Assembly (NCBI GenBank): GCA_028818695.1
Contig: JAPPNK010000018.1
Coordinates: forward strand, 124,001 to 188,000
Reading direction: 5' to 3'
Source of the DNA: Candidatus Poribacteria bacterium
GTDB lineage: Bacteria > Poribacteria > WGA-4E > GCA-2687025
DNA: 64,000 bases
Made by a program: the position numbers and the translations under genes. Under the pieces are notes generated by a model that had not been told where the DNA came from, searched no databases, and saw only the letters and a list, made by a program, of their open reading frames with translations. Shown piece after piece: positions 25,723 through 58,671 of the stretch; the stretch's first letter is position 1, and every line of letters starts with the position of its first letter.

Positions 25723-26100
25723 ATGTCTCTTACCGTGGTTCGATTGGTTCGTCCGACGCCGGAGTGGCAGGAAAGTTATGTTCGGGTGAAGGCGGGCCAG
25801 CGGCTCGTTGTGGACGCCGAGGGCGCTTGGTCGCCCGACCTGCGCAACCGCCAGGGCTGGTGCGGGGGGGACGGCATTCCGAACCTGATCGCCGGGGACG
25901 GCTTTCGGCTTCCGGGAGCGAATGTTGGATGCCTTGTCGGGCGAATTGGCAACGGAAAACCGCGAGCCTTCGGACACCGGTACGACAACTACCTGGACGA
26001 GGACGGGGTCGTCTTCCTAGCGATGAACGAAAACCCGAACCATAACAACCAAGCGGGGCAGCTGCTCGTCCAGTTGATTCTGTTTGACGCGGACGAATAA
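25723..26100 (+). CDS. PA-IL (LecA)-like carbohydrate-binding protein
   Basis: 125 residues, AAAGGGCG before the start. The order ESYVRVKAGQRLVVDAEGAW, then GCLVGRIGNGKPRAFGHRYD, then GVVFLAMNENPNHNNQAGQL follows the PA-IL/LecA-like galactose-binding fold, whose Ca2+ and sugar are bound by a loop like the N-x-N-x-x-x-N segment here. No signal peptide is present, as in LecA itself. A single-domain lectin next to a sugar isomerase is an unusual pairing and may indicate sugar recognition in the cytoplasm or non-classical release. Family assignment is by pattern only. Confidence 0.65.
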   Translation: MSLTVVRLVRPTPEWQESYVRVKAGQRLVVDAEGAWSPDLRNRQGWCGGDGIPNLIAGDGFRLPGANVGCLVGRIGNGKPRAFGHRYDNYLDEDGVVFLAMNENPNHNNQAGQLLVQLILFDADE

Positions 26101-26337: not shown

Positions 26338-28170
26338 CTATCCGACAGCGGCGGCGTCAAACTCTGGGCTTAATGAGACGCCCAGACTCTCCAGCAGCGG
26401 GCGGAAAAGCGCGTCTAGCTGGTCAAGCGAGCTGTCCGGCCCCTCCCACGGGCGCGGCGCAAAACGCATCCCCCCTATGAGGACCGAGTCGTGCCCGCGC
26501 GTCTCCACATAGTCGGCGTCGTTTGGGATGAACGCGGCGCGGTTCGTATGAATCTCGGCGCGGCACGGCGGACCGACCGCCTCCTCGCTCCCAACATACA
26601 GCAGCCAGAGCGAACGGGCGAACGGCTCCCCCGTTTCTGCGTCGCGTATCGCTGTCAAGTATTTCCGCAGGTCGTCCATTTCGCGGGACACATCGCGCAT
26701 ATACTTCGCGTCCAGAATGACGCCCATCTTCAGCTCCCCTTCCTCGCGCACCTCGATCATGAAGTCGGGGCTATAGGGCAATCCGCCGCCGGCTTTGTAG
26801 AAGGAGAGGCTGCGCCGCGCCGCCTCCTCCCGCTGAAAGATGAGCGGCGTGTATAAAAGGCGGAGCGTCCGCGTTTCATCCAGCCGAAACAGCGCCGACG
26901 AGCGCTCAATATGCAGCGTGTAGGCTCCGATCTGCGCCGAGCGCTCATACAGCGAGCCGTATTCCTCCACCTTCAACCGCCCCCGCTCGGTCAAATACCG
27001 CAGCATATTGAGGTATGTCCAATATTCGTACAGTTTGTCGGTGCCTTTGACGCGCGCCTGCATCTCAAAATTGGCGCGGTCGAAGATGTTCCCGTGCTGC
27101 CGCATGAACGAGAGCATGACGCGGTAGATCGTCGAATAGACAGGATGGCGCAGGAACAGGGCTGTCGGGCGCAGATCCATCGGCTGCGCGTCCGCCTGTA
27201 GAAACGGATATTCGCGCATGTCGCGCCAGATGGAGCGCCGATGTTCATTGCATGCTTCGATGATCTGCTCAAGTCGGCGTCTGCGCGGTTCATCCCCCGT
27301 TTCCCAGATGGAGCGCCCGTCCGGACGCGGCAGGTCTTTCCACCATCGATCCTCATCGATCAGCTCAATCTGCGCCTCCATCATCTGCGCGATGAACCCA
27401 AGCCTTTGCCGCAGCCACATCAAGAAGCGGCCGATCTGCTGGTTCTCATGCGTCTGCGCCGTCAAGGAACGGACCGGAGCGCTGCATAAAAATGGACGGC
27501 TGGACGGGTCGCGCGGATCGACGCCCGTGGAGATTAGGTCGTTCAGCGAGCGGTGGTCCAGTCCGTTGTAGCTCCATTTTTGGACGCGCTCCCTGTCCAC
27601 CTTTAATTGCAGCGCCGCTCCGCTCTGCAGTCCGCCCAGCTCGGCGCGTATTCTGTTTAAGGCGTTTCCGATCTCGGCATGCTCCTCGGTATGGCGAAAC
27701 CGGGTCGCCATGTTCTGTTGGCTCCAGCCGAAGCCCGCCCGCGCGCCCATCACATCCAGAATGAGACCCTTCGAAGCCGCCTCAATCTCCATCACCATCG
27801 CCTCGTACTGGTCTTCGGTGATCTTCGACGGGCGGCACAAGATCTCCACGACCATGGAGCTTTCGCCGCCCGGGCCGGTACGCGCGATCTGAATCGGAAC
27901 CCAGCCGCGAAAGTTGGCTAGAAACTTTTGCCCGCCCCAGCGCAGCCCCCCCGACAACAGCGACGACGGCGGATGCTCCATAGCGCCCACCCGCAGCGCG
28001 TAACGCGATCCAGGGTCAGGATTCGTCGCAACCGCCTCGATGTCGTCCAGTTCATAAACGGGGTGGCGCACCTGGCGCGTCGCGCCGTCTTCAAACGGGA
28101 AGCGCAGCGGCATCTCGCCAGGATACGGCGTCTCGTCCGACTCGACGTAGAGCAGCAGTTCCTCCGCCAT
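26338..28170 (-). CDS. McrC-like nuclease with DUF2357 domain
   Basis: 610 residues. The nuclease partner of the McrB-type GTPase encoded just upstream. The N-terminal two thirds match the DUF2357 type of McrC protein. The C-terminal third is a PD-(D/E)xK nuclease: Glu382 in DKLYEYWTYLNML, Asp469 in YSPDFMIEV and Asp487-x-Lys489 in GVILDAKYM. All catalytic residues are present, so it should be active, cutting modified DNA or possibly RNA when fed by the GTPase. It starts two bases after the GTPase stop, so it is co-translated. Its 3' end faces the dispersed repeat. Confidence 0.85.
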   Translation of the reverse strand: MAEELLLYVESDETPYPGEMPLRFPFEDGATRQVRHPVYELDDIEAVATNPDPGSRYALRVGAMEHPPSSLLSGGLRWGGQKFLANFRGWVPIQIARTGPGGESSMVVEILCRPSKITEDQYEAMVMEIEAASKGLILDVMGARAGFGWSQQNMATRFRHTEEHAEIGNALNRIRAELGGLQSGAALQLKVDRERVQKWSYNGLDHRSLNDLISTGVDPRDPSSRPFLCSAPVRSLTAQTHENQQIGRFLMWLRQRLGFIAQMMEAQIELIDEDRWWKDLPRPDGRSIWETGDEPRRRRLEQIIEACNEHRRSIWRDMREYPFLQADAQPMDLRPTALFLRHPVYSTIYRVMLSFMRQHGNIFDRANFEMQARVKGTDKLYEYWTYLNMLRYLTERGRLKVEEYGSLYERSAQIGAYTLHIERSSALFRLDETRTLRLLYTPLIFQREEAARRSLSFYKAGGGLPYSPDFMIEVREEGELKMGVILDAKYMRDVSREMDDLRKYLTAIRDAETGEPFARSLWLLYVGSEEAVGPPCRAEIHTNRAAFIPNDADYVETRGHDSVLIGGMRFAPRPWEGPDSSLDQLDALFRPLLESLGVSLSPEFDAAAVG

Positions 28171-28172
28171 GT

Positions 28173-30635
28173 TTACGCTTCCTGTATGCAGTGGAAGAAG
28201 TCCATCGCGTATTCCGACTCCATCATGCGCGACAGCCGCTTGTGGGAGCGCGGGTAAAACTCTTCCGGAAGCTCGCCCAGAAGCTCCTGCAGCAGCTGTC
28301 GGAACCTGTCTGTATGCCCGCGCAGTTTCGGGAGGACGCGCTGGAGTATCTGCCGGTCAAACGCCTCCCGTTCCGAGATCAGATCGGCGCTGTTCGCCGC
28401 GTACCGCGCGATGCCGCCCAACGCGCGCATGCTGAGCGGGTATCCGTACTGGTAGAGTATCTTCTGAATCGGGTCTATTGAACGGCGCACAAAGCTGATT
28501 GTCTCTTCAGACGGGCGCGATGCCGTCCAGCTGCGGTACACAGAGGCGGAAATGGGCGCCGCGTTTTTTCGTTCAAGATAGGAGGAGCCGAGAGGCGCCG
28601 TCTCCTGCCCCTCGAAGATCGGCTGCGGCGGCGGCTGTATCTCGATCACATTGACGCGGTCTAACATGCGCGGGCTGAACGGCTTCGTCGTTTCGTCCAC
28701 ATTCGCCGTCCCGGTAAAGCGCACGCTGCGCGCGATGGAAAGGTAGCCGTACGGGCGCAGCGGATCGCCTTCTGCGCACAGGTCGGGGTTGAAGCAGCGC
28801 ACCCCCTGCGCTCCCTCCGGGTTTTGAAGCGCGCTCAAAAAGTCGGCAAAGTAATGCTCAACATAGGACAGATTGATCTCGTCCAAATTGATCACATAGA
28901 CGCCTGAATGCCCCATTCGCTCCTCTTCGCAGGCGAACACGAGCGTTTCAAACAGGCGCGCCGGGGCAGGTTCAAAGACGCCTTCAAGGCTGTTGAAATA
29001 TCCGAGAAGGTCGCGCATGTCCATCCATCCAGGGCGCACCGGCACCATCAGATACCGATCGGGCGACTGCGACCCGGCATACCCATGCAGCGCGAGGCTG
29101 TATAGGCGCGGCAGGGTCGACTTGCCGACGCCGCTCGGACCCGCCAGTATGTTGAACCGCTCCGATTTCATGGCGATATGGTAGTTGAGCAGGTCCGATT
29201 CGACGTAGGAGTAGCCTGTGTCGCGCACATTTTTGAGCCACATTTCGATAAAATGCGCTTCGTCCATCGGGTTGTCGGGGGCGCCTTCCAGCACATAGGG
29301 GGGAAATTCGAAGGCGGAACGTTTGGGGGCGCGCTCCTGCTGAACAGCGGCAGCAGACGGAGCGCCGGCAATCGACGGAGCGCGCATTTCCTGAATCAAC
29401 GGCAGAATACTCAACATGTTTTGAAGAATCTCTTCGCGCTTCTCCTTGAAGTTGTCAGCCGCCTTCTCCAGCGCGGCGATCGTTTCGCGGCTTCGCGCCG
29501 TTTCCTTTTCATGTTTGCGCGCCATCTCCATCTCATGCTTGCGCCGCTCCTTCTCTAGCTCCGCCTCCTGCCGTCGCCGCTCTTCCTCATAAGCGTTCCG
29601 AGACGCCTCAATCTTCTGCGCCGTCTCGTCCCGCTCCGCGAGCAGCGCATCGATCTCTTGACGCGCCTTCGCCTCCAGCTCGCCCGTCCGCTGCCGCACA
29701 TACTCTTCGGCGAGTTCGCTTTGCCGCTTCTCCAGCGCCGTTTTCATATGCTCCTGCTTCAAAATGGAGTCGTACAGCGGGCGCAGCTCCTGCTCAAAAC
29801 CGCGGACGCGCGCGAGATAGGTCTCTATGCGGGGGCGGTAAGGCGCTAGATCGCCCTCCTCAATATCCTTCAGCGCGTTCTCAAAGAACCGCTCCAGCTC
29901 TCTCCTTTCGGCATGCGTCACCGAGGCGCGCGCGACCCTAGAGACGATGTCGCGGTCGCTCAACGCTTCTAGGTTGACCGCCTTCTCAAATGCGGTTTTC
30001 AGATGGTCGTAAAAAACAAGCGTATAGGACTCAAGCTCGTAGTCGCCCCATCGGCGGTCAGTTTCAAACCTCGCCTCGCGGGTGATGACGTTCACGAGCG
30101 AGACGAATTCGTCCCAGTTCCAGTTCCAGACGCGCTCCTGCTGCAGCGCCTGGACGTCAAACACATACGGGTCGCTCGATTCGTCGCGCAAGGAGACGCG
30201 CCACGGGCCGCTCACCTCTTCGCCTGTCAAAAAATAGACCGCTCCGTGGACAAGGCGGCGAAGACTCACCATACCCGCCCGTATCAGTTCAGCCGTCTGA
30301 CGGTATTGGTCAACGCGGATGATTTCGTTGACGCCTTTCAAGCGCGAGATAGAGCGCGCCTGATAAAAGTCTTTGTTTTGATCAACCGCGCTGTACGCCG
30401 GCGCCTCCTCTAGCTCCACTAACACAAGATTTTTTGGCACCGCATGGTCTCGGTCCGACTCCATAATGCGCCACCAAACAAGCCCTTTATTCGGAAATTC
30501 CTCCGCGGAAAGCGGTTTGCCTTCCATCGTGCATATCGGTATCAGACGGCAAAAATCGTTTCCGCCGCTCACAAAAGGCTCCTGCGCGACTGCGGCGACA
30601 ATGCGGTCGCCCACGCCGATATTGGCTCCTACCAT
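28173..30635 (-). CDS. McrB-like AAA+ GTPase with long coiled coil
   Basis: 820 residues, with TAGGAGAG before the ATG. Residues 1-~280 are a mixed alpha/beta region I do not recognise and are probably the target-sensing part. Residues ~280-410 are a continuous charged coiled coil. The AAA+ domain has Walker A AGPSGVGKST (Lys505) and Walker B VYVINLDEIN (Asp585-Glu586). The McrB-family GTPase block reads TGTANVDETTKPFSP: Asn and Asp are present, but as N-x-D rather than the NxxD of E. coli McrB. Residues ~700-820 are the helical lid. The McrB-coiled coil plus DUF2357-McrC pairing is the layout described for CoCoNuT type IV restriction systems. The tRNA cluster lies immediately upstream. Confidence 0.85.
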   Translation of the reverse strand: MVGANIGVGDRIVAAVAQEPFVSGGNDFCRLIPICTMEGKPLSAEEFPNKGLVWWRIMESDRDHAVPKNLVLVELEEAPAYSAVDQNKDFYQARSISRLKGVNEIIRVDQYRQTAELIRAGMVSLRRLVHGAVYFLTGEEVSGPWRVSLRDESSDPYVFDVQALQQERVWNWNWDEFVSLVNVITREARFETDRRWGDYELESYTLVFYDHLKTAFEKAVNLEALSDRDIVSRVARASVTHAERRELERFFENALKDIEEGDLAPYRPRIETYLARVRGFEQELRPLYDSILKQEHMKTALEKRQSELAEEYVRQRTGELEAKARQEIDALLAERDETAQKIEASRNAYEEERRRQEAELEKERRKHEMEMARKHEKETARSRETIAALEKAADNFKEKREEILQNMLSILPLIQEMRAPSIAGAPSAAAVQQERAPKRSAFEFPPYVLEGAPDNPMDEAHFIEMWLKNVRDTGYSYVESDLLNYHIAMKSERFNILAGPSGVGKSTLPRLYSLALHGYAGSQSPDRYLMVPVRPGWMDMRDLLGYFNSLEGVFEPAPARLFETLVFACEEERMGHSGVYVINLDEINLSYVEHYFADFLSALQNPEGAQGVRCFNPDLCAEGDPLRPYGYLSIARSVRFTGTANVDETTKPFSPRMLDRVNVIEIQPPPQPIFEGQETAPLGSSYLERKNAAPISASVYRSWTASRPSEETISFVRRSIDPIQKILYQYGYPLSMRALGGIARYAANSADLISEREAFDRQILQRVLPKLRGHTDRFRQLLQELLGELPEEFYPRSHKRLSRMMESEYAMDFFHCIQEA

Positions 30636-30734: not shown

Positions 30735-30809
30735 TGGGGCGGACAAGGGGAATCGAACCCCTGCGACCAGCTTGGAAGGCTGGGGCTCTACCAACTGAGC
30801 TATGTCCGC
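30735..30809 (-). tRNA. tRNA-Gly (anticodon UCC)
   Basis: The acceptor stem GCGGACA/TGTCCGC, D-arm GCTC...GAGC, anticodon stem CCAGC/GCTGG around CTTCCAA, and T-arm AGGGG/CCCCT all pair. The 3' CCA is encoded. The discriminator base reads C where bacterial tRNA-Gly normally has U. Confidence 0.95.
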
Positions 30810-30814
30810 AGAGA

Positions 30815-30899
30815 TGGTGGGAGGAGGAGGATTCGAACCCCCGAAGGCTTCGCCAGCAGATTTACAGTCTGCCCTCGTTGACCACTTGAGTATCCTCCC
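30815..30899 (-). tRNA. tRNA-Tyr (anticodon GUA)
   Basis: Class II tRNA with acceptor GGGAGGA/TCCTCCC, anticodon loop CTGTAAA, a long variable arm and encoded ACCA end. Six bases... separate it from tRNA-Gly, so the cluster is processed from one transcript. Confidence 0.96.
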
Positions 30900-30906
30900 A
30901 TATGTT

Positions 30907-30981
30907 TGGGGCTGGCGAGAGGAATTGAACCTCCGACCGGCTGATTACAAATCAGCTGCTCTACCTCTGAGCTACGCCAGC
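30907..30981 (-). tRNA. tRNA-Thr (anticodon UGU)
   Basis: The acceptor GCTGGCG/CGCCAGC, anticodon stem CTGAT/ATCAG around TTGTA in the loop, T-arm with TTCAATT, and encoded CCA. The discriminator base is C, again unusual. First of the three-tRNA transcript; its 5' end lies ten bases after the -10 box. Confidence 0.95.
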
Positions 30982-30990
30982 GCACAACAT

Positions 30991-31019
30991 ACTATAACCA
31001 ATAGAAGCCGAAGCGTCAA
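30991..31019 (-). promoter_or_regulatory. Strong promoter of the tRNA cluster
   Basis: TTGACG (31014-31019), 17 bases, TATAGT (30991-30996) on the - strand, each one mismatch from consensus, with the tRNA-Thr 5' end ten bases downstream. Confidence 0.85.
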
Positions 31020-31123: not shown

Positions 31124-33283
31124 TTAATGTTTAGGCGGGGCGCCAATTTCCCAGATGCGCAGGGTCAAGTCTCCGCTGCCGCTGGCAAGCGTCTTCCCGT
31201 CCGGCGACAACGCAATCTGCGATACGGCCGCGTTATGCCCTTCAAACGTTCGTACCGTTTTGCCGGCGTCCATGTCCCATAGACGAATGACCCCGTCCGA
31301 ATCGCCGCTGACAAGCATGGAGCCGTCCGGCAAAAATGCCAGCGACTGAACCGCATGGGTGTGTCCTGTGAGCGTTTGGATCGGCTCGCCGGTCGCGGGG
31401 TCCCATATCCGAATCGCGTCGTCCTCGCCGCCGCTGGCAAGCATAGAGCCGTCCGGCGAATAGACGACCGAAGCGACGCCCCCAAAATGCCTTGTGAACG
31501 TTCGTACCGCTTCCCCAGTGTTTGAGTTCCAGATAATGATGGAGCCGTCGTTGCCGCCGCTGGCGAGAAAGGCGCCGTCCGGCGAAAAATCTATCGTCTC
31601 CACAAGATACTTATGTCCAATGAGCGTATGCAGAAGCTCGCCGGTCGCGGGGTTCCATATCCGAATCGCATTGTCGGCGCCGCCGGCGAGCATAGAGCTG
31701 TCCGGCGAAAAAGCGGCGCATCGACCCATTCTACCATGCCATTCAAGCGTTCGTATGAGCTCGCCTGTTGAAGGATCCCAAATATAAAGTGCATTATCTT
31801 GGCATGCGCTGGCGAGCATGGAGCCGTCCGGCGAAAAGACGACAGCAAATGTGTTGGGTATTCCTCCCCTCAGCGTTCGCAGCCGTTTGCCCGTTGAAGG
31901 GTCCCAAAGACCGACGGCGGAGCCGAAGCCGCCGCTGGCGAGCATGGAGCCGTCCGGCGAATAGGCGACGCAGCGAGCTTTTATATGGATCGTCAGCGTC
32001 GCTTTCAACGCGGGGCAGAAAGCATACGCGTTGGAGGCAAGATCGTTGCCGGCGGCGTTCCTTGGTACGCGGACGCGCGCCGTGTCGAGACCTGAGGGCT
32101 GTATCGTCGCTGTATAGAACGCGCCAGAGCCGCTGAAGCTTGCGACCGACCCGTTTTCCACCTGAACATCGGACTGCTCAAAGCCTTTCACGCTTTCGCT
32201 GAATTGTATCGTCGCATCGAACGCGCCGGTCGGATGCTGGACGCCGTCATAGACTCTCACAAAAATGCCGACAGGCGCGCCGCCGATGTCCCAAATGCGA
32301 ACCCCGCTGCCGCTGTCGCAGGCGATCTCCTTTCCGTCCGGCGAAAACTCCAAGACGCTAGGCAAACCATGATGGCCTTTGAACGTCTGCATCAGAGCGC
32401 CAGAGTAGGCGTTCCATATCCGAATTTCGCCGGGGCCGCTGGCGCTGGCGATCCGCAAGCCGTCCGGCGAGAAGACGACCCGGCCAACGGGACCTTTATG
32501 TTTATGTTCTTCAAGCGTCCGCAGCTGCGCGCCGGTTGCAGCGTTCCAAACGCGAACCGTTCGATCTTTGCTTCCGCTGGCAAGCAGGGAGCTGTCCGGC
32601 GAAAACGAGACGGAGCTAACGCCGCTCGTATGTCCTATAAGCGTCTGCAGCAGCTCGCCTGTTTTTGGGTTCCAGATGCGAATCGTTCGGTCAGCCTGGC
32701 CGCTGGCGATCAGCGAGCTGTCGGATGAAAAGGCGACGGACGAATAGTCGGATGAGACCACCGTGCCCCCCGTATATACTTTGAGCGTCTGCAGTGGGTC
32801 CCCTGTTTTTGGGTTCCAGACGCGAATCATGTGGTCATCGTCGCCGCTGGCGAGCATGGAGCCGTCTGGCGAAAAGGCGACTTTGATAAAAAGGCCCGTA
32901 TGTCCTTCAAGCGTCCGCAGCAGCTCGCCTGTTTTTGGGTTCCAGATGCGAATCGTTCGGTCAGTCTGGCCGCTGGCGAGCATGGAGCCGTCCGGCGAAA
33001 AGGCGATCTTGGTAGAGTGGCCCCCAACTCCTTCAAGCGTCCGCAGCTTCTTGCCAGTCTTGGCGTCAAAGATGTACATCTTTTTGTAGCCGCCGGCAAG
33101 CAGCGAGCCGTCGGGCGAATAAACGGGGTCTAAAACCCCTTCCAGCGTCTTTTTGAGAACAGGGATCGACTTCGTCGACTTAAAAGAGGAATAGGCGGTA
33201 GCCGTTAATGCAACTCCGGTCGCAACCATCAAGCATACCCAAAAGAGCGGAGCCGAAGCGGCTTTTTTCAAATGAGCCTTCAT
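31124..33283 (-). CDS. WD40 double beta-propeller protein with central Ig-like domain (paralog 1)
   Basis: 719 residues from the ATG at 33283 (GGAG six bases upstream). An N-terminal membrane anchor or uncleaved signal (PLFWVCLMVATGVALTATAY) puts the protein outside the inner membrane. I count seven WD repeats by their SPDGSMLASG-type turns, then a bacterial Ig-like domain at ~340-425 (IQFSESVKGFEQSDVQVENG), then seven more, each ending in a RIWNP or LWD motif. This predicts two complete seven-blade propellers joined by an Ig-like spacer, a scaffold for protein binding. The adjacent gene upstream is a tandem paralog with the same layout. The C-terminus ends APPKH. Confidence 0.9.
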   Translation of the reverse strand: MKAHLKKAASAPLFWVCLMVATGVALTATAYSSFKSTKSIPVLKKTLEGVLDPVYSPDGSLLAGGYKKMYIFDAKTGKKLRTLEGVGGHSTKIAFSPDGSMLASGQTDRTIRIWNPKTGELLRTLEGHTGLFIKVAFSPDGSMLASGDDDHMIRVWNPKTGDPLQTLKVYTGGTVVSSDYSSVAFSSDSSLIASGQADRTIRIWNPKTGELLQTLIGHTSGVSSVSFSPDSSLLASGSKDRTVRVWNAATGAQLRTLEEHKHKGPVGRVVFSPDGLRIASASGPGEIRIWNAYSGALMQTFKGHHGLPSVLEFSPDGKEIACDSGSGVRIWDIGGAPVGIFVRVYDGVQHPTGAFDATIQFSESVKGFEQSDVQVENGSVASFSGSGAFYTATIQPSGLDTARVRVPRNAAGNDLASNAYAFCPALKATLTIHIKARCVAYSPDGSMLASGGFGSAVGLWDPSTGKRLRTLRGGIPNTFAVVFSPDGSMLASACQDNALYIWDPSTGELIRTLEWHGRMGRCAAFSPDSSMLAGGADNAIRIWNPATGELLHTLIGHKYLVETIDFSPDGAFLASGGNDGSIIIWNSNTGEAVRTFTRHFGGVASVVYSPDGSMLASGGEDDAIRIWDPATGEPIQTLTGHTHAVQSLAFLPDGSMLVSGDSDGVIRLWDMDAGKTVRTFEGHNAAVSQIALSPDGKTLASGSGDLTLRIWEIGAPPKH

Positions 33284-33317
33284 GTGAAACTCCACGCGCG
33301 CATGTCAGACTCGCTTT

Positions 33318-33345
33318 ATTATACCGCTGCCTTGATGCGATGCAA
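33318..33345 (-). promoter_or_regulatory. Promoter of WD40 paralog 1
   Basis: TTGCAT (33340-33345), 16 bases, TATAAT (33318-33323) on the - strand, in the context AGCGGTATAATAAA, which resembles the leaders of two other WD40 genes in the window. Confidence 0.5.
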
Positions 33346-33390
33346 ACGGCGCATTTGGGAGCTTGCCATAAATAGAAAGCGGCGCTCTGG

Positions 33391-33425
33391 ATTCCCGCCC
33401 GTGCAGAAGCGGCTAAGGGCGGGAT
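33391..33425. repeat. Intergenic hairpin between the tandem WD40 genes
   Basis: ATTCCCGCCC (33391-33400) and GGGCGGGAT (33417-33425) pair with one bulged base. It follows the stop of WD40 paralog 2 and may end its transcript. It looks like another member of the ATTCCCGC family. Confidence 0.4.
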
Positions 33426-33441
33426 CGGCGCGCCTTAATGT

Positions 33442-35580
33442 TTAGGGCGGGGCGTCCATCTTCCAGATGCGCACGGTGCGGTCTCGGCTGCCGCTGGCAA
33501 GCGTCTTCCCGTCCGGCGACAACGCAATCGGCCACACGGACGCGATATGCCCTTCAAGCGTTCGCACCGCTTTGCCTGCGTTAATGTCCCAGATACGGAT
33601 GACGCCGTCCGAACCGCCGCTGACAAGCATGGAGCCGCCCGGCAAAAATGCCAGCGACTGAACCGCATGGGTGTGTCCTGTGAGCGTTTGGATCGGCTCG
33701 CCGGTCGCGGGGTTCCATATTCGAATTGCGTCGTCCTCGCCGCCGCTGGCGAGCATAGAGCCGTCCGGCGAATAGACGACCGAAACGACGCGCTTAAAAT
33801 GCCTTGTAAAGGTTCGTACCGACTCCCCTGTGTACGGGTTCCAAATGATGACGGAGCCGTCGCTGGCGCCGCTGGCGAGAAAGGCGCCGTCCGACGAAAA
33901 TTTTAAAGTCTCCGCCGCGCTTTTATGTCCCGTGAGCGTTCGCAGACGCTCGCCTGTTGTTGGGTCCCATATTCGAATCGAATTGTCGTTGCTGCCGCTG
34001 GCGAGCATAGAGCCGTCCGGCGAAAAAGCGGCGCTTCGGATGATGTAAGTATGCCCCGTGAGCGTTCGAATAATCTTGCCCGTTGACGGATTCCATATAA
34101 GGACGTTGGAGTCGACGCCGCCGCTGGCAAGCATGGAGCTGTCCGGCGAAAAGGCGACCGCAAACACTGTGCCTAATTGCTCCTTAAGCGTTCGCAGCAG
34201 ATCGCCTGTCGACGGGTTCCAAATCCGAATCGATCCATTTCCTCCGCTGGCGAGCATGGAACCGTCCGGCGAAAAGGAAAGGCTCCTCACCGCTTCCGTG
34301 TGTCCCGTCAACGTCGCTCTCAATGCGGGGCAGAAAGCATACGCGTTGGAGGCGAATGGATTGCCGGCGGCGTTCTCTGGAACGAGGACGCGCACCGTGT
34401 CAAGACCCGACGGCTGAACGGTCGCTGTGTAGGTCGCGCCTGATCCGCTGAAGCTTTTGATCGACCCGTTTTCCACCAGAATATCGGACTGCTCAAAGCC
34501 TTCCACGCTTTCGCTGAATTGTATCTTCGCATCGAACGAGCCGGTCGGATACTGGGCGCCGCCATCGACTCTCGCAAAGGGACCGACAGGCGGGTCGCCG
34601 ATGTCCCAAATGCGGACCGCGTTGTCGATGCCGCCGGCAAGCTCCGTTCCGTCCGGCGAAAAGTCCAAGGCGGCAGCGTAACCTTGACGCCCTTTGAGCG
34701 TCCGCATCAGAGCGCCTGAGTAGGCGTTCCATATCCGAATCTCGCCGTCGCCGCTAGCGCTGGCGATCCGCGAGCCGTCCAGCGAATATGCGACGAAATA
34801 GACTGTGTCAATATGCCCTTCAAGCGTCCGCAGCGGCGCGCCGGTTGCGGCGTCCCAGACGCGAATTGTTCGGTCGTCGCTGCCGCTGGCAAGCAGGGAG
34901 CCGTCCGGCGAAAAGGCGACGGACATCGCAGAGCTCGTATGCCCTTCGAGCGTCCGCAGCGGCGCGCCGGTTGCGGCGTTCCAGACGCGGATCGTATTTA
35001 CATTTACACTGCCGCCGCTGGCAAGCAGCGAGCCGTCTGATGAAAAGGCGACGGATGAGACAACGCTCGTATGTCCTTCGAGTGTCCGCAGGAGGGCGCC
35101 TGTCTTTGGGTTCCAGATGCGAATCGTTCGGTCAGCGCTGCCGCTGGCGAGCATGGAGCCGTCGGGAGAAAACGCGACCGAGTGGATCTCGTTCGTATGC
35201 CCTTTAAGCGTCCGCAGCGGCGCGCCTGTTTTCATATCCCAGATGCGAATCGTATTGTCATAGCTGCCGCTGGCGAGCAGGGAGCCGTCGGAAGAAAAGG
35301 CGACCGATTGAACATCGTCGGTATGTCCTTCAAGCGTCCGCAGCTCTCTGCCTGTCTTGGCGTTCCAGATGTGAATTTTGTCGCCGGCGGCGCCGGCAAG
35401 CAGCGAACCATCGGGCGAATACGCGACGGAATGAACGAAACCTGAAGGCGCTTCCAGCGTCCTTTCGACGGCGGGGGTTGACTTGAAAAAAGAAAAATAG
35501 GCGGCAAACGCCAATGCGGCCGCCGCTAAACAGACCCAAAAGAGCGGGGACAAAGCGGCTTTTTTCAAATGAGCCTTCAT
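33442..35580 (-). CDS. WD40 double beta-propeller protein with central Ig-like domain (paralog 2)
   Basis: 712 residues from the ATG at 35580 (GGAG six bases upstream). It shares the N-terminus (MKAHLKKAA, then PLFWVCL), the seven-Ig-seven layout and long identical stretches with paralog 1. The Ig-like domain is at ~333-420 (IQFSESVEGFEQSDILVENG). Compared with paralog 1 it has one extra C near the 3' end, giving a stop directly after DAPP. It is separated from paralog 1 by ~160 bp with its own hairpin and the other gene's promoter, so each is probably its own transcription unit. Confidence 0.9.
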   Translation of the reverse strand: MKAHLKKAALSPLFWVCLAAAALAFAAYFSFFKSTPAVERTLEAPSGFVHSVAYSPDGSLLAGAAGDKIHIWNAKTGRELRTLEGHTDDVQSVAFSSDGSLLASGSYDNTIRIWDMKTGAPLRTLKGHTNEIHSVAFSPDGSMLASGSADRTIRIWNPKTGALLRTLEGHTSVVSSVAFSSDGSLLASGGSVNVNTIRVWNAATGAPLRTLEGHTSSAMSVAFSPDGSLLASGSDDRTIRVWDAATGAPLRTLEGHIDTVYFVAYSLDGSRIASASGDGEIRIWNAYSGALMRTLKGRQGYAAALDFSPDGTELAGGIDNAVRIWDIGDPPVGPFARVDGGAQYPTGSFDAKIQFSESVEGFEQSDILVENGSIKSFSGSGATYTATVQPSGLDTVRVLVPENAAGNPFASNAYAFCPALRATLTGHTEAVRSLSFSPDGSMLASGGNGSIRIWNPSTGDLLRTLKEQLGTVFAVAFSPDSSMLASGGVDSNVLIWNPSTGKIIRTLTGHTYIIRSAAFSPDGSMLASGSNDNSIRIWDPTTGERLRTLTGHKSAAETLKFSSDGAFLASGASDGSVIIWNPYTGESVRTFTRHFKRVVSVVYSPDGSMLASGGEDDAIRIWNPATGEPIQTLTGHTHAVQSLAFLPGGSMLVSGGSDGVIRIWDINAGKAVRTLEGHIASVWPIALSPDGKTLASGSRDRTVRIWKMDAPP

Positions 35581-35614
35581 GTGAAACTCCATGCGCGCAT
35601 GTCAGACTGGGTTT

Positions 35615-35643
35615 ATTTTACCGCCGCCTCAATGGATTGCCAA
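35615..35643 (-). promoter_or_regulatory. Candidate promoter of WD40 paralog 2
   Basis: TTGGCA (35638-35643), 17 bases, TAAAAT (35615-35620) on the - strand, in the context GGCGGTAAAATAAA. The rest of the 255-bp gap to the divergent WD40 gene (35581-35835) holds no gene I can support. Confidence 0.45.
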
Positions 35644-35835
35644 TAGCGCGATCAGGTCAGCGGCGATTTGTCTGAAACCAGGATTATCAGTAAATACAAA
35701 GACGGCAGGATCGTCAAGCTGAGCGGGCGGGAAACGCCTACTTTCGCCTGTAGGGGCTGACGGTCTACCGGCGGGCTTGACGCCCAGCTCAACATACCTT
35801 ATCTTCAGAGGCGTGTTTAATCGTCGGAGGGCGGC

Positions 35836-37803
35836 ATGAATAAATGGAAGCATGAGATTTATTGGGCTGTCGCATGCGCTCTGGCTCTGAGCGTCTTTGC
35901 GGCGTATGCTCAAACGCAAGGCTCGCAGATGAACCTGCCCGACGGAGCCAAAATGCGCCTCGGCAAGGGCTATATACAGCAGATCGCCTACTCGCCCGAC
36001 AGCCGAAGCCTAGCGGCCGGCGGCAGCCTCGGCATATGGATTTACGACGCGGGGACAGGCGCTGAAACCGCTCTGCTTCAAGCCCACACCGCCCCTGTTA
36101 TGTCAATCGCCTACTCGTCCGACGGCAAAACGCTCGCCAGCGGCAGCATCGACACAACCGTATGCGTCTGGGACGCGCAAACAGGCGCGCTTCTCAAGAC
36201 GCTTAAAGTTAAAACGCCCCCAGACTACAGCCCCGCGCGCGTTTTCTCGGTCGCTTATTCGCCGGACAGCAAAACGCTTGCCAGCGGCAGCGACAATGGA
36301 AAGGTACGCGTTTGGAATGTCGAAACGGGCGAACAGACGCAGACGCTTGAAGGGGGAATGAGCCGAATAGTTGCCATCGCCTACTCGCCGGACGGCAAAA
36401 CGCTCGCATGCGCAGACTTTTCTTTCAACGGCGAGAACGCCGTGTATCTCTACGACGTTGAAACGGGTGAACAGATACGGACTCTTAGAGATCATATGGA
36501 TATGATCTATTCCATCGCCTATTCGCCGGACGGCAAAACGCTCGCGAGCGGAAGCTCAGGCGCGGATAAAACGGTACGCATCTGGGACGCCGAGACGGGA
36601 ACGGTTCTCAAAAGGCTCGCCAAGAACGAAGACTGGATTAAATCGGTAGCGTATTCGCCGGACGGCAAATACCTTGCAAGCGGAGGATTAAACGAATTGC
36701 GTTTATGGAACCCTATTTCGGGAGTCCCTCTTCCGCCGTTTGAAGAGCGTCGCAGTTCGACAGAAAAGATCGCGTTTTCGCCGGACGGGCATTTTATTGC
36801 AGGCGGAGGAGACGCGGATCCGATACGCATTTGGAACGTTAAATTCGGCGCTATCGTGCGAAGAATAGACGGGTTTACGGCAATGCCCAATTCCGCTGTT
36901 TTTTCGCCGGACGGAAAAACGATCGTCAGCGCGCATGGCAACAGCGGCGGCGACTACGTCGTTCGAATATGGGACGCCGAAACCGGCAAGGCAATTCAAA
37001 CGCTCACAGGGCATTCCCCCAACGTCCTGTCTGCCGCGATTTCTCCCGACGGATCGCGCATCCTCAGCGGGGACGCCGATGGCGGGATACGCGTCTGGGA
37101 CGCCGCCAATGGAAGAGCGCTGCAATCGTTTGAAGAGAAAACGGCGCGGATATCTTCGGTTGCCTATTCTCCAAGCGGCGAGACCTTCGTCAGCCCGGGA
37201 CCCGATGAGACGGTTCGAGTCTGGGACGCGGCGTCCTTCGGCGGGGGCGCCGGGCTGTTAAAGACGCTCAAAGGAGACATAACGGACGTTGATTATCCGT
37301 TCAAGTATACGTTCGCCGCCTATTCTCCGGACGGAACGACGATTGCGGGCGCTGGAGGCATTCCCGTCATCAAGGGCGCCGTCCATATTTGGGACGCCGT
37401 CACCGGCGCGCTTATCCAATCCATTCATAAGGATGTAGGCTATATTTCTTGCGCCGCTTTTTCTCCGGACGGGAAGACGCTTGCCAGCGGCGGATTCGAT
37501 GATGAGGTTCATATTTGGGATGTCGAAACGGGCGCGCGGCTCAAAACGCTCAAAGGGCATATTTCCAGCGTCCGCTCCGTCGCCTACTCGCCGGATGGGA
37601 AGACGCTTGCCAGCGGCGGCGGCTGGGGGGACAGGACCATTCGCATTTGGGACGCCGCGTCTGGGGAGCCGCTCAAAACGCTTGAAGGGCATCGAAGCGG
37701 CGTCAGTTCGGTCGCCTTTTCGCCGGACGGGAAGACGCTCCTCAGCGGCAGCGCAGACGGAACGGCGCTTCTTTGGGATATTGCGGATATTGAGAGCCGC
37801 TAG
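35836..37803 (+). CDS. Exported WD40 protein, fourteen repeats without Ig-like domain
   Basis: 655 residues with a cleavable signal peptide (IYWAVACALALSVFAAYA) and GGAGGG before the ATG. Fourteen WD repeats can be counted by their YSPDGKTLASG-type turns, the last ending LLWDIADIESR; this fits two seven-blade propellers fused directly. It differs from the two divergent neighbours in lacking the Ig-like spacer and in preferring SPDGKTLASG over SPDGSMLASG, so it is a separate lineage of the same family and not a recent copy. Role unknown; presumably periplasmic or surface scaffold. It converges on nfo. Confidence 0.9.
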   Translation: MNKWKHEIYWAVACALALSVFAAYAQTQGSQMNLPDGAKMRLGKGYIQQIAYSPDSRSLAAGGSLGIWIYDAGTGAETALLQAHTAPVMSIAYSSDGKTLASGSIDTTVCVWDAQTGALLKTLKVKTPPDYSPARVFSVAYSPDSKTLASGSDNGKVRVWNVETGEQTQTLEGGMSRIVAIAYSPDGKTLACADFSFNGENAVYLYDVETGEQIRTLRDHMDMIYSIAYSPDGKTLASGSSGADKTVRIWDAETGTVLKRLAKNEDWIKSVAYSPDGKYLASGGLNELRLWNPISGVPLPPFEERRSSTEKIAFSPDGHFIAGGGDADPIRIWNVKFGAIVRRIDGFTAMPNSAVFSPDGKTIVSAHGNSGGDYVVRIWDAETGKAIQTLTGHSPNVLSAAISPDGSRILSGDADGGIRVWDAANGRALQSFEEKTARISSVAYSPSGETFVSPGPDETVRVWDAASFGGGAGLLKTLKGDITDVDYPFKYTFAAYSPDGTTIAGAGGIPVIKGAVHIWDAVTGALIQSIHKDVGYISCAAFSPDGKTLASGGFDDEVHIWDVETGARLKTLKGHISSVRSVAYSPDGKTLASGGGWGDRTIRIWDAASGEPLKTLEGHRSGVSSVAFSPDGKTLLSGSADGTALLWDIADIESR

Positions 37804-53278: not shown

Positions 53279-54805
53279 ATGGCCGTCAACCCGCGCATCA
53301 TTGTTGAGCTGTTTCGGGACAAGCATTTTCAGGGGACGAAGGCGACCGTCGTTGAGCCTATAGAGGACCTGAGCGAGATCGGAATGGACGAGACGATTTC
53401 CTCCATCAAGGTTTACCACGGTCCGGGAGCCGCGGCGGCGCCGAATCAGCGCGTTGTTTTCTTTGAGCATACGCGGTATCAGGGGCGCAAGATCACGCTT
53501 CCGCCCGGTTTTTATCCGGATATTCATGCGATACCGTACAACTTTGGCGAAGTGGTCTCGTCCCTCAACTTCTCCCCCTCCGCCCGGCTGACCGCGCCAA
53601 AATACGGCTGGATGCCGCTCATCGTTGAGGTGTTTCAAGACCTGAACTACAAGGGGCGGCGCGCCACCATCCTGCGCGACACGAGTTACATCGGCGAGAT
53701 CGGGCTGAACGACCGCATCTCTTCCATGCGCGTCACGCGCGGACCGAACTTTCCGTTCACGGGCTGCCGCGCCGTTTTCTTTCAGCATCCCGACTACGAG
53801 GGGCGCGAGCTGTCTATCGCCCTCGGCCCGCGCGACTTCTCCGTCCAGATCTCCAATCTGGATGATTACAACCTGCGGACGCGGGCGGGAGAAGCGATAC
53901 ATCATATTGACCCAGACCGCGGCGTTGAGAACCTGGCAAAGACAGGCTTCGACAACACGATCAGCTCCGTCAAGATACTGCCGACCGGCAATTTTAACGT
54001 CCTAGTGGTTGAAGGCGATTCGCACACGCGCGAACCCGGCATTTTGGAGGATTTCCGCGAACATCAGGGCAATACCTTCCGCTTCGACCATGTCCGCATC
54101 AACCAAGACCTAGAGAACCACGGATCGGCGGACGCGGTGGAGTTTGAATCGATTCTCCACCTGCTCGACAATTACGACATCATCTGGTTCACATGGAACG
54201 CGCCTGGGCATAGAGGGTCCTATTTTTTGGAGCCGTCTGGGGAGCGCGCCATACAGGAGTGGGTAAAGGCGGGGGGAACGCTCTGGGCGTCGGCGATGGA
54301 CGACAACATTGAAAAGGATGAAAAAGAAGGCAAGAAATGGAGAGGCGACTGGCTGCCCGTTTACCGGCACCCGGCGCGCGTTGTGAATTCGGAGGATGTG
54401 AAGATCTGGATGACGCGGGAGGGGCGCAAGACGGGGCTTTTCACCTGGCCGGAGAAGGTGGACCCGGAGCGCATTCAAACGGACGATCACTGGGTCACAA
54501 CCGACCCCGCTTACACGATTTTAGCCCGGCGCGACGACAACCAGGAGCCGATCGCCGCGCAGTTGCCTTGGGGCGACGGGCATTATATTCTGTTTGCCAT
54601 TGACACCGGCTCGAATGAAGTTGCCGAAGCGGCGCGTCCGCTCATCGGCAACGCGCTATGTTTTCTCGCCAGCTTGGCGTGGTCGACTTCGCCGCGCCAG
54701 CCTCTGCGCGGGCGCAGCCGTTCCGCGGGAGGCATGTCCAGCGCAGGCGTTGTTGACAGGACGCGAAATCGACGGCCGCAACCGTATCGAAGGAGCTTAT
54801 CATGA
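53279..54805 (+). CDS. Beta/gamma-crystallin protein with C-terminal glutamine-amidotransferase-like fold
   Basis: 508 residues, 16 bp after the first crystallin gene. Residues 1-~235 carry crystallin motifs (FEHTRYQGRKITL, FQDLNYKGRRATIL, FQHPDYEGRELSIAL) with N/D-N/D-x-x-S-S sites in MDETISSIKV, LNDRISSMRV and FDNTISSVKI. Residues ~240-470 look like a class I amidotransferase/ThuA-type Rossmann domain (FNVLVVEGDSH, NYDIIWFTWNAPG, WVKAGGTLWASAMDDN, GDGHYILFAIDTGS) without an obvious nucleophilic cysteine, so probably a binding rather than catalytic module. The tail is Arg/Ser-rich. No signal peptide. Its stop overlaps the flotillin-like start (ATGA). Confidence 0.8.
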   Translation: MAVNPRIIVELFRDKHFQGTKATVVEPIEDLSEIGMDETISSIKVYHGPGAAAAPNQRVVFFEHTRYQGRKITLPPGFYPDIHAIPYNFGEVVSSLNFSPSARLTAPKYGWMPLIVEVFQDLNYKGRRATILRDTSYIGEIGLNDRISSMRVTRGPNFPFTGCRAVFFQHPDYEGRELSIALGPRDFSVQISNLDDYNLRTRAGEAIHHIDPDRGVENLAKTGFDNTISSVKILPTGNFNVLVVEGDSHTREPGILEDFREHQGNTFRFDHVRINQDLENHGSADAVEFESILHLLDNYDIIWFTWNAPGHRGSYFLEPSGERAIQEWVKAGGTLWASAMDDNIEKDEKEGKKWRGDWLPVYRHPARVVNSEDVKIWMTREGRKTGLFTWPEKVDPERIQTDDHWVTTDPAYTILARRDDNQEPIAAQLPWGDGHYILFAIDTGSNEVAEAARPLIGNALCFLASLAWSTSPRQPLRGRSRSAGGMSSAGVVDRTRNRRPQPYRRSLS

Positions 54806-57800
54806 GAATTGGCGTCACAATCGCCGCTATAGCGGCTTCTATTGCGCTCGCCGTCTATACCTTTATGGAGATTGGCGAATCTCTACCGGATCCTGTCGCC
54901 ACGTCTCTCTTGATCGGAGTGCCGGTTATCGTTGCGCTGGCGGCGATGTACCGTTATGAAAAGCCGCGCGCCGACCAAGCGCTGGTGCGAACAGGGGGGC
55001 GCAAGGAAAAGATCAACATCACCGGCGGTCTCTGGGTCAATAAAATTATCCATGAAATCCGTCAGATTTTTCTCGACACGATACGGCTAGACATTGTCCG
55101 CGTCGGACCGGACGCGCTCATCACCAGCGATTTTCTAAGGGCGGATATTGAGGCGGCGTTTTTTATAAGAGTGGAACCGGAACCGGATCAGATATTGCGG
55201 GCTGCGCAGAGCCTCGGCGAACGCACCATGACCGCCGAGGAGCTGACGGAGCTGCTTGAACAGAAACTGGAAGGCGCCCTGCGCATCGTCGCCGCCGAAA
55301 AAGAGCTGCAAGACCTGCTTCAGAAACGAAAAGATTTTGCAGAAGCTGTCCAAGAATCGGTGCGAAGCGATCTTGAACATAACGGCTTGACGCTGGAAAC
55401 GGTCTCGCTCATCCGCGTCGACCAGGCGCCGCTGGAATCGATGGACGAGAACAATCAGTTTGACGCGCAGGGGATTCTCAAAATCACCGAGGTGACTCAA
55501 CAGAACAGATATGAAGCGGAGAAAATACGCCTGGAGGTTGACGTTCAGATCACGGAAGTGGAGACCTCAACCCAGGAAGAGAAGCTGGAGCTGAATAAGC
55601 GCCTGGCGTGGAAGGAGGCTGATCAGGCGAAGGAGATCGCCACCTACGCCGCCGAGAAAGAGGCGGACACGCTCGCCTATCAGTATGAGCAGGATCAGCG
55701 CATCCAAGAGACGGAGCAGATGACGAAGCTCGCCATTGAGCGCGCCACGATTACGACGGAGCAGGGCGTGCTGGAGCGCGAGATTGAGAAGCTGCTGAAT
55801 GTAGAGACAGCGCGCATTCAACAGGAACAGTATGTCCAAGAGGCGGAGATTGAAAAGAACCTCAATGTGGAGCTGGCGCAGGTTGACCAGTCGCAGAAGG
55901 TTCAGATCGCCGAAGTGGAGCGGATGCTGGCGGTTGAGACGGCAAGAATCGCGCAAGAGCAGACGGTGGAAGAGCGCGATATTGAGCGGAATCTGGGCGT
56001 TGAAACGGCTGAAATTGCGCAGCAAGAGGCTGTCCAGGTGAGGGATGTTGAACGGGTGATGGCGACCGAAACGGCGCGCATCGACCAGGAGCGCGTCGTC
56101 CAGACGCGGGACATTGAAAAGAACCTGATCATCGAGACGGCGCAGATTGATCAGACGCGGCAGGTTCAAGAGGCTGAGATTGAACGAACCTTGCGCGTGG
56201 AAACGGCAAGGATCGCTCAGGAGCAGACGGTCAAAGAGCGGGACATTGAACGCGAGCTCGGCATTCAGATTGCCCAGATCGCGCAGCAGGAAGGAACGCA
56301 GGTCAGGGACGTTGAGCGGGTCCTGGCGACGGAGACGGCGCGCATCGACCAGGAGCGTGTCGTCCAGACGCGGGACATTGAAAAGAACCTGATCATCGAG
56401 ACGGCGCAGATTGATCAGACGCGGCAGGTTCAAGAGGCTGAGATTGAACGAACCTTGCGCGTGGAAACGGCAAGGATCGCCCAGGAGCAGACGGTCAAAG
56501 AACGTGACATTGAGCGCGAGCTTGGCATTCAGATCGCCCAGATTGCGCAGCAGGAAGGAACGCAGGTCAGGGACGTTGAGCGGGTTTTGGCGACGGAGAC
56601 GGCGCGGATTGACCAGGAGCGTGTCGTCCAAACGCGAGACATTGAAAAGAACCTGATCATTGAAACGGCGCAGATTGACCAGACGCGGCAGGTTCAAGAG
56701 GCTGAGATTGAACGAACCTTGCGCGTGGAAACGGCAAGGATCGCTCAGGAGCAGACGGTCAAAGAGCGGGATATTGAACGCGATCTCGGCATTCAGATTG
56801 CTCAGATCGCTCAACAGGAAGGAACGCAGGTTAGGGACGTTGAGCGGGTCTTGGCGACCGAGACGGCGCGGATTGACCAGGAGCGTGTCGTCCAAACGCG
56901 GGATATTGAAAAGAACCTGATCATCGAGACGGCGCAGATTGATCAGACCCGTCAAGTTCAAGAGGCTGAGATTGAACGAACCTTGCGCGTGGAAACGGCG
57001 CGGATCGCCCAGGAGCAGACGGTCAAAGAACGTGACATTGAGCGTGAGCTCGGCATTCAGATTGCTCAGATCGCTCAACAGGAAGGAACGCAGGTTAGGG
57101 ACGTTGAGCGGGTCTTGGCGACCGAGACGGCGCGGATTGACCAGGAGCGCGTCGTCCAAACGCGGGACATTGAAAAGAACCTGATCATTGAAACGGCGCA
57201 GATTGACCAGACGCGGCAGGTTCAAGAGGCTGAGATTGAACGAACCTTGCGCGTGGAAACGGCAAGGATCGCTCAGGAGCAGACGGTCAAAGAGCGGGAC
57301 ATTGAACGCGAGCTCGGCATTCAGATTGCCCAGATCGCGCAGCAGGAAGGAACGCAGGTCAGGGACGTTGAGCGGGTCCTGGCGACGGAGACGGCGCGCA
57401 TCGACCAGGAGCGTGTCGTCCAGACGCGGGACATTGAAAAGAACCTGATCATCGAGACGGCGCAGATTGATCAGACGCGGCAGGTTCAAGAGGCTGAGAT
57501 TGAACGAACCTTGCGCGTGGAAACGGCAAGGATCGCCCAGGAGCAGACGGTCAAAGAACGTGACATTGAGCGCGAGCTTGGCATTCAGATCGCCCAGATT
57601 GCGCAGCAGGAAGGAACGCAGGTCAGGGACGTTGAGCGGGTTTTGGCGACGGAGACGGCGCGGATTGACCAGGAGCGTGTCGTCCAAACGCGAGACATTG
57701 AAAAGAACCTGATCATTGAAACGGCGCAGATTGACCAGACGCGGCAGGTTCAAGAGGCTGAGATTGAACGAACCTTGCGCGTGGAAACGGCAAGGATCGC

Positions 57801-58671
57801 TCAGGAGCAGACGGTCAAAGAGCGGGACATTGAACGCGATCTCGGCATTCAGATCGCTCAGATTGCGCAGCAGGAAGGAACGCAGGTCAGGGATGTTGAA
57901 CGGGTCTTGGCGACGGAGACGGCTCGGATTGACCAAGAAAGAGTCGTTCAGACGCGGGACATTGAAAAGAACCTGATCATCGAGACGGCGCAGATTGACC
58001 AGACGCGGCAGGTTCAAGAGGCGGAGATCCAGCGCACCTTAGTTGTGGATACGGCGCGGATCAATCAGGAGATGATGGTCGCCTTGGTCGGCGAAGACAA
58101 GAATATCTCTATCTTCAACCGCCAGCGCGACACCGAGCTTTCGGAACGGGACAAGCTGGAAGCCGAGGCGGAAAAGGCTGAAGCGATGGTGAATGTGTCG
58201 GCGGTGGAACGCACGCGCGAAGCGGAATGGCAGCGCGAAGTGGCGATCATCAACGCCGAAGGTCAGGCGCAGCCGATTGAGCGGCTTGCCGAAGCGATAC
58301 TCGCCGAGGCGCAGGCAAAAGCGGAAGGCGAAATGGCGCACCTCCAAGCGCGCAACACCGCCGAACAGCGCGTCCTCGTACAAGAGGCGGTCATGGAGCT
58401 GATCGACCGCTCCCCCGACATTGTTGAGCAGATGGTGAAGCCTGCCGAGCAGATCGACAGCATCAAAATACTTGACATGGGGCAGGGCGACGGACCGGTC
58501 AACCGAAACAACATGGGCAAACTTGCCAACACGATACTTGACACAGGCGTTCTGTCGCCGATTTTGAAGGAGCTGTTCAATTTCGCCGATGTGGACGCTG
58601 AGCAGATTGCGGACAAGCTGACCGAGTATCTGGGCGCGCTCATTCATCCGCAGGCTCGCGACAACGACTAG
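54802..58671 (+). CDS. Giant flotillin-like SPFH protein with 88-residue coiled-coil repeats
   Basis: 1289 residues. Two hydrophobic segments (~5-23 and ~33-50), then an SPFH/flotillin domain (~53-230: ADQALVRTGGRKEKINITGG, ADIEAAFFIRVEPEPDQIL, FAEAVQESVRSDLEHNGLTL). From ~230 to ~1130 it is an unbroken charged coiled coil; residues ~420-1072 consist of an 88-residue unit repeated seven times plus part units. Each unit is four 22-residue segments such as ETARIDQERVVQTRDIEKNL, giving an 11-residue periodicity. The C-terminal ~160 residues (AEWQREVAIINAEGQAQPIE) resemble the flotillin end. Flotillins (YqiK/FloT) scaffold membrane domains and oligomerise. The usual size is 500-600 residues, so the stalk is greatly lengthened. 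It is coupled to the second crystallin gene. Confidence 0.88.
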   Translation: MRIGVTIAAIAASIALAVYTFMEIGESLPDPVATSLLIGVPVIVALAAMYRYEKPRADQALVRTGGRKEKINITGGLWVNKIIHEIRQIFLDTIRLDIVRVGPDALITSDFLRADIEAAFFIRVEPEPDQILRAAQSLGERTMTAEELTELLEQKLEGALRIVAAEKELQDLLQKRKDFAEAVQESVRSDLEHNGLTLETVSLIRVDQAPLESMDENNQFDAQGILKITEVTQQNRYEAEKIRLEVDVQITEVETSTQEEKLELNKRLAWKEADQAKEIATYAAEKEADTLAYQYEQDQRIQETEQMTKLAIERATITTEQGVLEREIEKLLNVETARIQQEQYVQEAEIEKNLNVELAQVDQSQKVQIAEVERMLAVETARIAQEQTVEERDIERNLGVETAEIAQQEAVQVRDVERVMATETARIDQERVVQTRDIEKNLIIETAQIDQTRQVQEAEIERTLRVETARIAQEQTVKERDIERELGIQIAQIAQQEGTQVRDVERVLATETARIDQERVVQTRDIEKNLIIETAQIDQTRQVQEAEIERTLRVETARIAQEQTVKERDIERELGIQIAQIAQQEGTQVRDVERVLATETARIDQERVVQTRDIEKNLIIETAQIDQTRQVQEAEIERTLRVETARIAQEQTVKERDIERDLGIQIAQIAQQEGTQVRDVERVLATETARIDQERVVQTRDIEKNLIIETAQIDQTRQVQEAEIERTLRVETARIAQEQTVKERDIERELGIQIAQIAQQEGTQVRDVERVLATETARIDQERVVQTRDIEKNLIIETAQIDQTRQVQEAEIERTLRVETARIAQEQTVKERDIERELGIQIAQIAQQEGTQVRDVERVLATETARIDQERVVQTRDIEKNLIIETAQIDQTRQVQEAEIERTLRVETARIAQEQTVKERDIERELGIQIAQIAQQEGTQVRDVERVLATETARIDQERVVQTRDIEKNLIIETAQIDQTRQVQEAEIERTLRVETARIAQEQTVKERDIERDLGIQIAQIAQQEGTQVRDVERVLATETARIDQERVVQTRDIEKNLIIETAQIDQTRQVQEAEIQRTLVVDTARINQEMMVALVGEDKNISIFNRQRDTELSERDKLEAEAEKAEAMVNVSAVERTREAEWQREVAIINAEGQAQPIERLAEAILAEAQAKAEGEMAHLQARNTAEQRVLVQEAVMELIDRSPDIVEQMVKPAEQIDSIKILDMGQGDGPVNRNNMGKLANTILDTGVLSPILKELFNFADVDAEQIADKLTEYLGALIHPQARDND
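56074..57921 (+). repeat. 264-bp in-frame tandem repeat, seven units
   Basis: The codons for TARIDQERVVQ recur eight times between 56074 and 57922 at exact 264-bp intervals, so seven full units lie between them, with flanking part units. By eye, 56152-56771 and 57208-57827 are identical at an offset of 1056 bp (four units), so a four-unit block was duplicated recently. Confidence 0.95.

Follow-up and report, generated by a model that had tools for sequence, protein, structure and literature searches.

The window analysed here, 64,000 nucleotides of DNA from a Candidatus Poribacteria bacterium, carries two adjoining genes that are best explained, with good probability, as a two-gene Type I CoCoNuT (McrBC-related) nuclease system of the I-C architecture. 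This is a known kind of system, from a recently described family, and what is new is this Poribacteria member. The preliminary description had proposed a CoCoNuT-like McrBC pair, a reading that is supported by the GTPase motif, the gene order, the GTPase tree and the partner's fold, and that can now be narrowed to the I-C plan. The features shared with Type I-C are a locus of two genes only, an NxD GTPase (CnuB) with a fused N-terminal OB fold and coil, and a nuclease (CnuC) that joins a RhoGDI-like Ig domain, DUF2357 and a PD-(D/E)xK domain. The likeness is one of published architecture, and searches with the second N-terminal domain of CnuB gave no YTH-like match.

Organisation of the gene pair

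Open reading frame analysis found both genes intact, each with an ATG start and with products of 820 (CnuB) and 610 (CnuC) amino acids. They are co-directional, with cnuC downstream and 2 nt between the cnuB stop and the cnuC ATG (Table 1), in agreement with the earlier account of an 820-residue McrB-like AAA+ protein co-translated with a nuclease. An AGGAG-type ribosome-binding site precedes cnuB, the first gene of the pair. Among the neighbouring genes in the window, no separate coil gene and no CnuH, CnuE or Hsp70 gene was found beside the pair, nor did a HEPN or other RNase partner adjoin it. A 125-aa open reading frame without a Pfam match (window positions 25723-26100, + strand) converges with the end of cnuC.

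Table 1. Features of the gene pair and of the adjoining tRNA cluster, in window positions.
Feature	Position	Strand	Basis or remark
cnuB-like gene: OB fold, second N-terminal domain, charged coil, NxD McrB-type GTPase	28173..30635	-	ORF, relatives, alignment
CnuB 1-107, modelled as an OB fold	30315..30635	-	AF2 model, fold comparison
CnuB 108-225, second N-terminal domain, invariant G143-P144	29961..30314	-	AF2 model, alignment
CnuB 264-420, charged helical / coiled-coil stretch	29376..29846	-	AF2 model, heptad analysis
CnuB 455-820, McrB-type AAA+ GTPase and C-terminal helical part	28176..29273	-	alignment, profile searches
Walker A GPSGVGKS, CnuB 499-506	29118..29141	-	alignment
NxD signature N-V-D-E, CnuB 645-648	28692..28703	-	alignment; compare E. 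coli N-T-A-D
cnuC-like gene: Ig sandwich, DUF2357, PD-(D/E)xK nuclease	26338..28170	-	ORF, Pfam, alignment, model
CnuC 1-115, Ig-like beta sandwich, RhoGDI-like	27826..28170	-	AF2, fold comparison
CnuC 116-372, DUF2357 / McrC N-terminal helical bundle and stalk	27055..27825	-	Pfam, fold comparison
CnuC 373-595, PD-(D/E)xK nuclease, D469...D487-A-K489 intact	26386..27054	-	PDDEXK_7, alignment, fold comparison
tRNA-Thr(TGT), tRNA-Tyr(GTA), tRNA-Gly(TCC)	30735..30981	-	cluster directly upstream of cnuB
Promoter-like TTGACG-17-TATAGT	30991..31019	-	before the tRNA cluster; consensus match only

The GTPase of CnuB

Pfam returned generic P-loop models only for CnuB. A profile built from NxD GTPases has E. 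coli McrB as its best PDB match. The Walker A motif, the Walker B motif (LDE, 584-586) and GTANVDE (642-648) align with those of all relatives, and at the place of the last of these E. coli McrB has LMNTAD. The NxD signature is present in the window protein and in every relative examined. The observation that N-x-D-E departs from the NxxD of McrB was thus correct, but it marks no novelty: NxD, as a rule with E or D after it, has been defined as the hallmark of the CoCoNuT-containing branch of McrB proteins (PMC11090510), and the motif is therefore a mark of membership rather than an oddity. Walker B and NxD lie about 58 residues apart in the alignment, the spacing of Type I-B, and no helical insert separates them, which argues against Type I-A. 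The PADLOC candidate PDC-M26A also matches CnuB (E 2e-36); it was rejected as a subtype marker because several NxD groups trigger the same model.

The N-terminal domains and the coil

The AF2 model of CnuB 1-300, built from 18 sequences, has a mean pLDDT of 86.5. OB folds dominate the fold matches for residues 1-130 (exosome subunits, RPA, SSB, RecO and LEF-3, Z up to 6.2), and a comparison with a viral structure library agrees. With Z scores that are middling, the claim draws on the consistency of these lists and is made at the level of the fold only: the modelled structure of residues 1-107 is an OB fold, which is what is expected of a Type I CnuB, the OB fold of I-C being CSD-like (PMC11090510). 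The single-stranded DNA binders RPA, SSB and LEF-3 are among the best OB matches, and the OB folds of exosome and translation proteins match equally well.

Residues 108-225 form a confidently modelled domain in which G143-P144 is invariant across the alignment. It found no match in Pfam or PDB profiles, nor in profile comparison with the N-termini of Type I-B proteins. A YTH-like domain between the OB fold and the coil is reported often, not always, in Type I-C (PMC11090510). Pfam models of EVE and YTH matched none of the 18 N-termini and equally failed on the I-B N-termini used as a control, which are said to be YTH-like, so that a missing Pfam match in this region means little. A YTH or EVE row is likewise absent from the fold lists for CnuB 1-300, lists that cover residues beyond 130 poorly. 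The idea that the N-terminal ~280 residues may be a new sensing domain is therefore divided: its first part models as the expected OB fold, whereas 108-225 matches nothing found. Residues 108-225 are likely where the choice of target is made.

From the N-terminal region to the GTPase, CnuB is charged and nearly free of glycine and proline. Heptads are clear only at the two ends of this coil, roughly at residues 263-304 and 382-416; in between, residues 333-388 read as a charged helix. The coiled coil of the preliminary description thus stands as a charged, G/P-poor stretch with heptads at both ends, but not, in the copy of the window, across its middle. Several relatives show heptads over more of the stretch than the window protein does. 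The heptad signal appeared with shorter windows, while a long-window Fourier analysis gave none.

The nuclease partner CnuC

The partner had been described as a DUF2357/PD-(D/E)xK protein with all catalytic residues, and this is borne out. PDDEXK_7 matches CnuC above the Pfam cut-off (E 6e-10) and DUF2357 falls below threshold (E 0.024); across 15 aligned family members the two models are found in 14/15 and 10/15, respectively, and D469, D487 and K489 are invariant in all 15. The DAKY nuclease motif is identical to that of E. coli McrC. The AF2 model has a mean pLDDT of 78.5. Fold matches to residues 1-115 include an RSC subunit (Z 9.1), Pycsar AGS-C (8.4) and many RhoGDI entries (7.0-7.6). 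RhoGDI is what the Ig domain of I-B and I-C CnuC proteins most resembles (PMC11090510), and since this had been reported for those two types, the RhoGDI likeness is a feature in which the assignment could have failed. The rest of the protein is matched by McrC structures: 6hz4 in the nuclease (Z 9.6, rmsd 3.0) and 7vsr with a Z of 9.4 but an rmsd of 8.3.

Relatives, distribution and GTPase tree

The closest relatives of CnuB are in Candidatus Poribacteria metagenome-assembled genomes (43-55% identity over the protein). When GTDB contigs were scanned with an alignment, 546 GTPase relatives came up and the 80 best were retained; a scan with a single sequence found nothing. Among these best 80 of 546, 19 match most of CnuB, nearly all of them including the N-terminus, and they come from Poribacteria, Vicinamibacteria, Granulicella, Planctomycetota, Lentisphaerota, Chromatium and others. 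An McrC-like gene adjoins cnuB in most such relatives with enough flanking DNA, and the pair is thus kept together across several phyla, phyla that the main text of the CoCoNuT paper does not name (PMC11090510). Within the Poribacteria family the system occurs in 4/6 genomes, at locations that differ between members, and it was not found in the other genomes of the class and phylum. The CnuB-type N-terminus was found in only 1/369 gammaproteobacterial genomes. Viral contigs held no CnuB relative by the patterns used, plasmids held GTPase-only relatives and none matching the N-terminus of the Chromatium protein, and phages gave a single short GTPase-like match.

Two Poribacteria relatives, L054 (G003) and L056 (G001), have a cnuB in which a frame change or a stop interrupts the gene, which reflects either decay or assembly errors. 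In Chromatium weissei (L063:11472-13282), an EcoRV-family endonuclease and a D12-class adenine methyltransferase adjoin the pair.

In a GTPase tree of 92 rows, the multi-phylum clade of the window is supported at 100/98, and relations between clades lack resolution. When long branches were left out, the window clade (15 rows) was sister to a clade of 30 rows holding the three-gene I-B loci (87/86), a moderate value that makes the sister relation to Type I-B suggestive rather than firm. In the same tree, the methyltransferase- or reader-linked NxD groups formed a separate set (98/91) and the II/III-type rows lay apart. The I-B GTPase clade also contains a Veillonellales/Dialister group (L116, L122, L128, L129) whose CnuB is about 700 aa long and upstream of which no separate coil gene was detected.

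Genomic surroundings

The pair begins 100 nt behind the tRNA-Thr-Tyr-Gly cluster, on the same strand. In a consensus scan the stretch from the tRNAs to cnuB showed nothing resembling a terminator, so that the pair may share the promoter-like TTGACG-17-TATAGT site of the cluster. In four relatives the tRNA cluster continues with tRNA-Thr(GGT), and in one of these EF-Tu then follows, with ribosomal protein L1 further on (both named from motifs). In the genome of the window (G000), tRNA-Thr(GGT) is on another contig, C12, upstream of genes that by sequence reading resemble secE, nusG, rplK and rplA, and the one full EF-Tu gene found lies near an EF-G-like match on C32. The ancestral tRNA order therefore seems to be broken between Gly and Thr, with the pair at the break. 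The genome is 91% complete, which leaves the loss of a second EF-Tu copy unproven. In another genome (G005), separate contigs carry the pair and the tRNA cluster, so that the link between them is local. A simple island insertion at the 3' end of tRNA-Gly was considered and rejected: the window holds no second copy of that tRNA 3' end, and a rearrangement fits at least as well, given that tRNA-Thr(GGT) is with secE-nusG on another contig.

The other neighbours of the pair are housekeeping or WD40 genes, and there is no defence island here. Three large WD40-repeat genes occupy window positions 31124-37803; the two of them on the - strand share the same beginning (MEFHMKAHLKKAA) and seem to be recent tandem duplicates. 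AT skew is unusually strong at positions 1-2000 (0.38) and 54001-58000 (0.15-0.29) relative to the greater part of the window.

Classification and alternative explanations

A two-gene plan without a separate coil gene has been described for Types I-A and I-C (Bell et al. 2024, PMC11090510), and Type I-A was rejected for want of the insert between Walker B and NxD. Type I-B (CnuA + CnuB + CnuC, in Bacillota) is the nearest supported GTPase clade and has NxD and the kind of CnuC in common with the window pair; it was rejected because its loci have their own coil gene of about 310-480 aa, which the window pair lacks, and because its N-terminus has no detectable similarity to that of the window CnuB. 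Types II and III also share the NxD GTPase with coil, but they add CnuH helicase, CnuE or CnuD genes and have a larger CnuC; no CnuH, CnuE, CnuD or Hsp70 neighbours stand at the window locus and the fetched examples differ, so these types were rejected as well. Classical McrBC of E. coli K-12 resembles the pair in its GTPase and in the fold and motif of its nuclease. However, it has NxxD (NTAD) in place of NxD, on which ground it was rejected, and differs in having another N-terminal region, no coil and no Ig domain.

The pair could nevertheless act as a modification-dependent DNA restriction system like McrBC, with N-terminal domains that recognise modified or single-stranded DNA, a CnuC that cleaves DNA and no part for RNA. 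This is a possibility to be taken seriously, if one that we hold to be doubtful: the nuclease motif is that of a DNA-cutting enzyme, no RNase partner adjoins the pair and single-stranded DNA binders are among the best OB matches, but exosome and translation OB folds match as well as these do, and the CoCoNuT paper argues for RNA in the family generally (PMC11090510). It is on balance unlikely that the pair represents a new Type I subtype near I-B and I-C, with CnuB 108-225 replacing the YTH-like reader as a new sensor of nucleic acid or modification and hence a different target. Every other feature tested is that of I-C, the YTH-like domain is not constant in I-C according to the paper, and Pfam misses the reportedly YTH-like N-termini of I-B too. 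What speaks for a new subtype is that the window forms a well-supported clade of its own in the tree, that its N-terminus shows no detectable likeness to I-B or to any Pfam or PDB profile, and that it is found in phyla new to the main text of PMC11090510 and hardly at all in gammaproteobacterial genomes.

The position among housekeeping genes, behind a tRNA cluster with which a promoter may be shared, also brings to mind an McrBC derivative taken over for a housekeeping function instead of defence, and an McrB-family protein co-opted for cell division is reported in S. aureus (PMC10602043). A patchy presence within the family and absence elsewhere in the class and phylum, a location that changes from member to member and the broken frames in two relatives' copies nonetheless make such a role very unlikely. 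The two-gene Type I CoCoNuT system of I-C architecture is thus retained as the best explanation.

Proposed mechanism and role

By analogy with McrBC, CnuB would assemble as a GTP-dependent ring, from which its N-terminal domains, the OB fold and the second domain, held on the coil, would bind a nucleic-acid target, either RNA or modified or unusual DNA. CnuC would insert its stalk into the ring, and target binding together with the stalk would drive GTP hydrolysis, which in turn would activate or position the PD-(D/E)xK nuclease to cut the target. RNA has been argued to be the target of CoCoNuTs in general (PMC11090510) and is favoured by the logic of the family, whereas DNA is favoured by the intact McrC nuclease and the lack of an RNase partner. 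The role of the pair is probably anti-phage defence.

Type I CoCoNuTs have been predicted to be GTPase-nuclease systems with RNA or modified DNA as their target, and the literature searched held no experimental test of any Type I member. A compact pair of two genes in which every catalytic residue is preserved lends itself well to testing such systems, and the clade to which it belongs extends the CoCoNuT family into Poribacteria, Planctomycetota, Lentisphaerota and Acidobacteriota.
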